The translations under genes were made by a program, and so were the position numbers. A DNA stretch of 64,000 nucleotides. Source: Caldicellulosiruptor bescii DSM 6725 (GTDB taxonomy: Bacteria > Bacillota > Thermoanaerobacteria > Caldicellulosiruptorales > Caldicellulosiruptoraceae). The stretch is taken from NCBI RefSeq assembly GCF_000022325.1, contig NC_012034.1, forward strand, positions 186,001 through 250,000, given 5' to 3'. The number at the start of each line of letters is the position of its first letter. The first letter of the stretch is position 1. Shown here one piece after another: positions 21,461 through 23,353 of the stretch. The notes beneath the pieces were generated by a model that was not told the DNA's origin, did no database searches, and saw only the letters and a program-made list of their open reading frames with translations.

Positions 21461-21482
21461 ATTCTAAAGAATATGTTATAAT
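21454..21482 (+). promoter_or_regulatory. Promoter of the hydG leader RNA
   Basis: TATAAT at 21477-21482 with a weak -35 TTTTAA at 21454-21459 (17-bp spacer). Transcription would begin near 21489. Confidence 0.55.
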
Positions 21483-21488
21483 ATTAAC

Positions 21489-21622
21489 AAACAAAATATT
21501 TGATCCTGACTTAGAGGGCATCATGGCCTGATAAGGAGGGGAATGGGATTGATGTCAACAATAAGACATAAATCCACCTCTTTTGGCTGAAAAGGTTAAA
21601 AAGTCAGGAGAGGTGGTTTTAT
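21489..21622 (+). ncRNA. Structured leader RNA with antiterminator/terminator switch (riboswitch-like)
   Basis: A 9-bp closing stem is formed by TCCTGACTT (21504-21512) and AAGTCAGGA (21601-21609). It encloses a short hairpin at 21515-21529, an ATGTC/GACAT hairpin at 21552-21569 and G-rich 21535-21546 that can pair with CCACCTC. A competing terminator stem (21574-21588 with 21602-21616) uses the same 3' strand, so the two folds exclude each other. I do not recognise it as a known riboswitch class or T-box; the family is open. Confidence 0.6.
21574..21622 (+). terminator. Attenuator terminator in the hydG leader
   Basis: CCACCTCT (21574-21581) pairs with AGAGGTGG (21609-21616). The stem can extend inward through GGCT/AGTC to about 15 bp with three wobbles, and TTTTATTTT follows. 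It lies upstream of the coding region, so it is conditional. Confidence 0.8.
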
Positions 21623-21652
21623 TTTACCTGAAAAAGGGAATGGTGAAGCAAA

Positions 21653-21898
21653 TTGGAAAGGAGAATTGGCGTTATTGGAATTGTGATTGAAAACAGAAAA
21701 GAGGTATCAGACAAGCTCAACAAAGTCTTAAGCGATCATGGTGATATTATTGTTGGCAGGATGGGTATACCATATAAAGAAAGAGGGCTTTGTGTAATCT
21801 CGCTCATAGTTGATGGAACAACTGATGAGATTGGCGCGCTCACAGGAAAGCTTGGTAGCTTGCCAGGTGTTAAAGTAAAAAGTGCTCTTACTAAATAA
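21653..21898 (+). CDS. TM1266-type iron-only hydrogenase system regulator
   Basis: This 81-residue protein (RIGVIGIVIENRKEVSDKLNKVL, DIIVGRMGIPYKERGLCVISLIVDG) matches the TM1266 family: small ferredoxin-fold/ACT-like proteins, resembling the NikR C-domain, encoded beside hydrogenase maturation genes. They are thought to be regulators, though DNA binding is not shown by the sequence. The frame begins at a TTG at 21653 after GGTGAAG. The gene ends 21 bp before hydG, downstream of the structured leader. Confidence 0.85.
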   Translation: MERRIGVIGIVIENRKEVSDKLNKVLSDHGDIIVGRMGIPYKERGLCVISLIVDGTTDEIGALTGKLGSLPGVKVKSALTK

Positions 21899-21919
21899 AA
21901 AGTGGAGTGTGATTTTGAG

Positions 21920-23353
21920 ATGTTTAGAAAAGATGAATGGGAAAGAACTGAGTTTATAAATGACCAGATGGTCTATGATATTCTTGAAGAAGGTAGAAAA
22001 AATGTTGACAGAGCAGAAGAAATAATTGAAAAAGCTTTGCAGTTAAATGGACTTGAGCCTCAGGAGGTTGCAACCCTTCTTTATATAGAGGACAAGGACC
22101 TTTTAGAAAAGCTTTTTAAGGCGGCAAGGCAGGTAAAAGAAAGGATTTATGGCAAGAGGATTGTGCTTTTTGCACCTCTTTACATCAGCAACTTTTGTGT
22201 AAACAACTGCCGATACTGTGGTTATCACAGGTCAAATACCAAAATGAAAAGAAGAAAACTTACGATGGATGAGATACGAAAAGAGGTTGAAATAATTGAA
22301 TCTCTTGGGCACAAAAGAATTGCTCTTGAGCTTGGCGAAGATCCAAAAGAAGCGCCAATTGAATATGTCATAGATGCCATAAAAACCATATATTCTGTTT
22401 ACAAGGAAAAAGGAAATATAAGAAGAGTAAATGTAAACATTGCAGCAACAACAATTGAAGAATATAGGATGCTAAAAGAAGCAAAAATAGGTACTTATGT
22501 ACTTTTCCAGGAAACATACCACAGACCAACCTATGAATACATGCACCCCGAAGGCCCAAAGTCAGATTACGACTGGCATACAATGGCAATGGACAGAGCA
22601 ATGCAAGGTGGAATTGATGATGTTGGGCTTGGAGTGCTCTTTGGGCTTTATGACTATAAATTTGAGGTTGTTGGGCTAATCTTGCATGCAAAGCATCTTG
22701 AGGAAAGATTTGGAGTAGGACCACACACAATCTCTGTGCCAAGGATTAGACCTGCCGAGGGTGTTGAGGTGACAAAAGAAAGGTATCCTTACCTTGTTTC
22801 TGATGATGAGTTTAAAAAGATTGTTGCAATAATAAGACTTGCTGTGCCCTACACTGGAATGATTTTATCTACCCGTGAAAGACCAGGTTTTAGAGAAGAG
22901 GTAATTGACCTTGGAATATCGCAGATAAGCGCTGGGTCCTGCACGGGTGTTGGTGGCTATACTCTTGAGTATGAAGAAAAATCCACGGGTAATTTAGATG
23001 AAGACCTTGCACAGTTTGAGGTTGAAGATAAAAGAAGTCCAGATGAGGTCATAAGAACACTTTGCGAGGAGGGTTATATTCCAAGCTACTGTACAGCTTG
23101 TTACAGAAGAGGAAGAACTGGGGATTTATTTATGCAGTATGCAAAGACAGGTGACATTCAAGACTTTTGTACACCAAATGCGCTTTTGACTTTTATGGAG
23201 TATTTAGAGGACTATGGCTCTGAAAAGACAAAAGAGGTTGGGCGAAAAATTATATATGAGAGCTTGAATCAAATAAAAGATGAAAAAATGCGCAAAGAAA
23301 CTGAAAAGAGGCTTGAGATGATAAGAAATGGTGTGAGAGATTTATATTTCTAA
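21920..23353 (+). CDS. hydG: [FeFe]-hydrogenase maturase HydG
   Basis: HydG is a radical-SAM tyrosine lyase that makes the CO and CN ligands of the hydrogenase H-cluster. The SAM-cluster motif is CVNNCRYC (C93, C97, C100 from the ATG at 21920). The C-terminal auxiliary cluster ligands are in YCTACYR plus the Cys of DFCTPN, with the usual 22-residue gap. The ATG at 21920 has GGAG 12 nt upstream; a GTG at 21902 would add six residues. The protein is about 477 residues, normal for HydG and longer than ThiH. HydE and HydF are not in the window. Confidence 0.95.
   Translation: MFRKDEWERTEFINDQMVYDILEEGRKNVDRAEEIIEKALQLNGLEPQEVATLLYIEDKDLLEKLFKAARQVKERIYGKRIVLFAPLYISNFCVNNCRYCGYHRSNTKMKRRKLTMDEIRKEVEIIESLGHKRIALELGEDPKEAPIEYVIDAIKTIYSVYKEKGNIRRVNVNIAATTIEEYRMLKEAKIGTYVLFQETYHRPTYEYMHPEGPKSDYDWHTMAMDRAMQGGIDDVGLGVLFGLYDYKFEVVGLILHAKHLEERFGVGPHTISVPRIRPAEGVEVTKERYPYLVSDDEFKKIVAIIRLAVPYTGMILSTRERPGFREEVIDLGISQISAGSCTGVGGYTLEYEEKSTGNLDEDLAQFEVEDKRSPDEVIRTLCEEGYIPSYCTACYRRGRTGDLFMQYAKTGDIQDFCTPNALLTFMEYLEDYGSEKTKEVGRKIIYESLNQIKDEKMRKETEKRLEMIRNGVRDLYF

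Follow-up and report, generated by a model that had tools for sequence, protein, structure and literature searches.

The leader upstream of the TM1266-hydG gene pair of Caldicellulosiruptor bescii is very probably an attenuator built on a conserved hairpin. Judged from the comparison of related leaders, its conserved core is a hairpin with two tandem G.A loops on the 5' side of the closing stem P1, and not P1 itself. In our fullest explanation of this system, to which we assign a probability of roughly 0.5, TM1266 decides between the alternative folds of the attenuator.

Leader anatomy

The window, a stretch of 64,000 nucleotides, carries on its plus strand a gene for a TM1266 family putative regulator of 81 aa (21653..21898; TIGR03959, 118.8 bits vs a cut-off of 60.8; PF21699, NikR_C), followed by hydG, encoding the H-cluster radical SAM maturase (21902..23353; TIGR03955, 660 bits). 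The pair is known in the literature as Athe_0168/0169, and its position directly downstream of the leader is consistent with the proposal that the leader controls the TM1266-hydG unit. A pattern search located a Rex-type palindrome, TGTTATAATATTAACA (21474..21489), which is invariant in 12 genomes and lies over the promoter -10 element (TATAAT, 21477-21482). For the C. bescii orthologue, a Rex site 181 bp upstream of the start has been validated by EMSA, and deletion of rex shifted expression of the operon by only about -0.2 log2 (PMC6391272). Since Rex binds the promoter, yet its deletion is nearly neutral, a further layer of control is plausible; post-initiation control, for instance by a leader attenuator, would fit the weak rex effect, as other explanations may. 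This operator, the hairpin at 21504-21541 and the Shine-Dalgarno (SD) sequence with its short open reading frame (ORF) are additions to the earlier reading of the leader.

The architecture originally predicted for the leader was recovered in full. The 9-bp closing stem P1 is formed by nine Watson-Crick pairs between a genus-specific 5' strand (21504..21512, plus strand), which overlaps the 5' strand of the hairpin, and the 3' strand AAGTCAGGA (21601..21609, plus strand), which by pairing and the genus alignment overlaps the 3' arm of the terminator. The terminator consists of a 5' arm kept across the genus (CCACCTCTTTTGGC; 21574..21587, plus strand) that forms 14 pairs, three of them G.U, with 21603-21616, a 15-nt loop and, after the stem, TTTTATTTTA; in the fold, the 3' arm GTCAGGAGAGGTGG and its T-rich tail span 21603..21626 of the plus strand. 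P1 and the terminator both use GTCAGGA (21603-21609), as had been claimed. The G-rich strand, said to be able to mask CCACCTC, can pair through AAGGAGG (21533-21539) with CCTCTTT (21577-21583).

None of 200 dinucleotide shuffles folded as stably as the leader (z = -5.05), and much of this stability likely comes from the terminator. When the transcript was extended to 21609, its lowest-energy fold comprised P1 and the antiterminator, and at 21612 the terminator prevailed, which supports the predicted geometry as a transient state. An intrinsic terminator thus competes with an alternative fold within the window, and P1 in turn competes with the hairpin at 21504-21541. The original description of a riboswitch-like attenuator holds for the anatomy and for the competition between terminator and alternative fold; the element is not centred on P1, and sensing may fall to a protein, TM1266, in place of a metabolite.

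The leader occurs in each of the 12 genus genomes, always with P1, the terminator and the G-rich strand. Their alignment shows almost no change in the hairpin strands, in either terminator arm or in the 3' strand of P1, and a segment of variable length in between, a pattern that fits strands predicted to serve two helices. As the core hardly varies, the genus data alone give no test of covariation. The same scarcity of changes would suit a plain terminator whose fold-back stems arose by chance and regulate nothing, but about 30 families share the hairpin, with compensatory changes in its stem and a single gene neighbourhood, and we regard this explanation as extremely improbable.

A tandem-GA hairpin as the conserved core

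The hairpin (R2 element; 21504..21541, plus strand) reads CCU-GA-CUUA-GA-GGGC, a 6-nt loop and GCCU-GA-UAAG-GA-GGG, and is identified by an R2 match, by covariation across families and by the minimum free energy fold of the early transcript. The R2 match covers 21504-21542 with 35.5 bits, and the hairpin is present here as a single copy. Searching with R1, a covariance model of the complete leader, retrieved two diverged homologues, L058 and L059, which come from a second family within the class, are the closest relatives outside the genus and each precede TM1266-hydE; they keep the hairpin, as UCCUGACUU(A/U)(G/A)AGGG...CCUGA(U/C)AAGAAGGG, and the terminator, and lack the P1 3' strand, so P1 was rejected as a general feature. 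Another R1 match, L060, lies inside a rimI-like coding gene and was put down to chance, as were 28-bp side matches, the one inspected (L016) lying inside coding sequence.

The same architecture was found in unrelated sequence upstream of TM1266 in other genomes, often as two tandem copies, with the consensus of a hairpin of ~38 nt, CCU-GA-N4-RA-GGN...NCU-GA-N4'-RA-GGR, that includes the two tandem G.A loops. Structure-pattern candidates occurred in 28 of 72 upstream regions, compared to 6% of first-order Markov controls. In an ungapped alignment of 20 sequences, whose members had been picked partly for pairing and whose loops had been trimmed, 96% of cells pair and double changes affect 51 cells vs 15.8 after shuffling. 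Because this choice was biased towards pairing, the test was repeated on sites that sequence anchors alone had selected (YCUGR ... RAGGR, pairing not required): the flanking four-base stems paired at 2.90 of 4 positions, compared to 1.58 in permuted sites (maximum 2.12 in 2000). Held-out sites, from loci outside the model, gave 2.71 vs 1.69 permuted (0/2000). Covariation is thus present across families in the hairpin stem; P1 is invariant in the genus and so offers none, and its 3' strand is missing in L058 and L059. Fixed U.G pairs beside the G.A steps argue for an RNA rather than a DNA palindrome. The tandem G.A steps may resemble k-turn-like or antiterminator-protein sites, which we take as a lead only. 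An ANTAR-type hexaloop was rejected on inspection, since loop length differs among members.

A strand with two predicted roles

The 3' strand of the hairpin, UAAGGAGGGG (21532..21541, plus strand), is both an SD sequence, followed in 12/12 genomes by a start codon 8-12 nt past GGAGG, and an antiterminator strand that pairs with the terminator 5' arm. The leader ORF behind it (21543..21590, plus strand) can start at ATG 21543, TTG 21549 or ATG 21552, is in frame in 12/12 genomes and ends at TGA 21588-21590. It comprises 10-15 codons, has a perfect SD throughout the genus and closes with ...STSFG at the junction of terminator arm and loop. An ORF running to this stop was found in 12/12 genus genomes vs 0/12 in each other frame, and shuffling of the variable segment yields one at ~0.08 per genome; the genomes are related, and the values were not multiplied.

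Ribosome-mediated attenuation alone, in which translation of the leader peptide is sensed and the hairpin is a passive brake on the SD, would draw on this SD and on the ORF that ends in the terminator in 12/12 genomes; short ORFs of a similar kind were also seen, by inspection, in L062 and L080. Within the one genus (12 genomes), however, the peptide varies outside STSF, a stretch dictated by the terminator sequence, and many class members have no such ORF. Some place the element directly on a gene: upstream of ECF genes (L162, L164) and of Peptostreptococcus hydG, the element's 3' strand is the gene's own SD. The sequence conservation of the hairpin also exceeds what masking of an SD needs, and we consider this explanation improbable.

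In nearly all TM1266 leaders tested, an intrinsic terminator follows shortly after the element. The element's 3' strand together with the next bases pairs more strongly with its own terminator arm than with those of other leaders (means of -10.6 vs -9.2 kcal/mol; permutation p = 0.005); in several leaders (L062, L074, L085, L087 and L099) the strand has no special pairing to its own arm.

Distribution over maturase loci and transporters

R2, a 35-nt model of the double-GA hairpin only, by which degenerate forms are missed, gave matches in 87 of the 398 genomes searched in the phylum, with E-values from short calibrations. The downstream gene was annotated by tblastn for 83 placements, taking the nearest gene within 700 nt, and 70 of them lie at most 700 nt upstream of TM1266 (35), hydG (22), hydE (12) or hydF (1). 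The genomes with these placements come from about 30 families of anaerobic bacteria (66 genomes, 32 families in a list compiled by hand). Of the others, five precede an ECF substrate-binding component (PF12822), one an SsuC-like permease, in a cluster that also holds an SsuA/NMT1-type binding protein, and seven none of these genes. The hairpin is therefore a conserved, structured leader element common to functionally related genes.

Among named records, the element stands upstream of hydG in Desulfosporosinus and Lutispora MAGs (L026, L027, L023); the matches in Peptostreptococcus (L033, L034) are weak (E 0.08-0.25), with the complementary stem CAAA/UUUG kept on inspection. At non-Bacillota hydG loci (Syntrophorhabdus-type, Synergistaceae, Bacteroidota), R2 gave no match. 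PF12822 ECF components were observed directly under the element or beside a TM1266 gene under it (L162, L164, L213, L215, L217; L175, L192), and the substrate of these transporters is perhaps linked to H-cluster assembly. At L170 (genome G180), an SsuABC/NMT1-type ABC transporter is preceded by a near copy of the TM1266 element of the same genome.

Several TM1266 loci depart from the common arrangement. L085, L097 and L105 carry a second element past TM1266 and ahead of the hyd gene that follows it, an arrangement that allows separate control of the two genes within a cluster. Element-less TM1266 genes follow right after coding sequence at L064, L068, L069, L073, L078, L081 and L112, the upstream product at L068 being DivIVA-like; in genomes G026 and G034, TM1266 without an element of its own likewise follows a gene whose translated product is DivIVA-like. 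At L092, L098, L104 and L109, a different motif (e.g. UUCGUCCCG...GAAGGCG before a terminator) lies upstream of TM1266 and is possibly a related variant outside the R2 model.

TM1266 as the candidate sensor

TM1266 resembles the C-terminal domain of NikR, with one solved relative (2nzc), and at 81 aa it is too short for a separate DNA-binding domain. In a sample of 149 genomes, a hyd-adjacent element was found in 0 of 15 genomes that encode hydG but lack a confident TM1266 (two of these show sub-threshold matches) vs about 38 of 59 with TM1266, a hand count that includes weaker matches (Fisher p = 3e-6, relatedness ignored). About 20 of these 59 genomes have no detectable element. TM1266 was also present in 41/41 further element-bearing genomes (relatedness ignored), in many of them on another contig or far away. 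The regulator gene is thus present wherever the element is, in counts uncorrected for relatedness, as protein-dependent attenuation would have it. This co-occurrence, often unlinked, and the lack of room for a DNA-binding domain favour TM1266 as an RNA-binding factor, and we give it an even chance of being the hairpin's partner and sensor, which makes it the leading candidate on comparative grounds. Alternatively, TM1266 may just be carried along with the regulon.

A metabolite or metal riboswitch would assign these observations differently: the hairpin, often in tandem, would itself bind a small molecule of H-cluster assembly or uptake, and TM1266 would merely be a regulated neighbour. The strong sequence conservation around the G.A steps, the tandem copies, as in some riboswitches, the presence of both transcriptional and translational platforms and the transporters among the targets all speak for this possibility. 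At about 35 nt, though, the conserved core is small and, apart from the G.A steps, has few unpaired bases that are conserved, nor would a riboswitch account for the element's strict association with TM1266 genes at unlinked loci. We hold a riboswitch to be possible, at about one chance in three.

Proposed mechanism and significance

We propose that the tandem-GA hairpin marks the regulon by which many clostridia mature the H-cluster, the active site of [FeFe]-hydrogenase. The folded hairpin would hide its 3' strand and lead to termination (OFF), and the open hairpin would lead to readthrough (ON), a polarity that we infer, as we do the nature of the signal and the binding of RNA by TM1266. Once exposed, the strand could recruit a ribosome to the leader ORF, which ends inside the terminator arm, and could also pair with that arm, both events blocking termination; P1 would be an extra stem of this genus that aids the ON fold. 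TM1266, alone or with a maturation-linked ligand, would bind the hairpin and so choose between the folds. A single rule would then cover the terminator and SD platforms: the folded hairpin masks the strand and expression drops. The general form of this proposal, to which we lend a little less than even credence, is an undescribed RNA class for which TM1266, as an RNA-binding sensor with a NikR-like ligand domain, reports on H-cluster assembly and regulates the maturases, together with the importers linked to them, through attenuation and SD sequestration.

None of the papers found describes how cells adjust the supply of maturases to the demand for [FeFe]-hydrogenase, and a regulatory RNA common to about 30 families would give a direct handle on the control of that supply. 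The proposal also gives TM1266, by annotation no more than a putative regulator family, a function that can be tested, and the linked ECF and ABC transporters point to imported substrates tied to H-cluster assembly.

Comparison with known RNA families and systems

In line with the original prediction, no Rfam 15 family tested matched the element. An Rfam 15 search of the window gave no riboswitch or leader family above the gathering threshold, and searching the leader at E up to 10 gave only weak matches (best 17.1 bits vs 46.7 needed). A resemblance to RT-6 (17 bits) rests mostly on the genus-variable segment and was rejected, and the window leader has no T-box match. Across 20 related loci, the sole Rfam match was an unrelated T-box leader near a TM1266 gene at L068 (1236-1445, minus strand), and permissive filters yielded nothing relevant at four loci. 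Neither the open-access literature searched nor Rfam holds a report of a structured RNA tied to hyd maturation genes.

Among known systems, the element is close in outline to the LicT/SacY-RAT, PyrR and TRAP systems, in which a short leader hairpin with non-canonical pairs is set against a terminator in several operons and the regulator gene often lies in a controlled operon. It differs from them in that its sequence and shape are not known to resemble their binding sites, the candidate protein is NikR-C-like, the element also masks an SD, and the binding of a protein is a proposal. Tandem or dual-aptamer riboswitches (of the glycine and guanidine-II type) likewise place two similar small units in tandem before a terminator or SD, whereas our element has no Rfam match and its window copy is single. 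The leaders of ribosome-mediated attenuation, such as those of bmrCD and trp, share the short ORF ending in a terminator arm, but here the SD is part of a hairpin that is conserved and covaries, and a leader ORF is missing from many class members.
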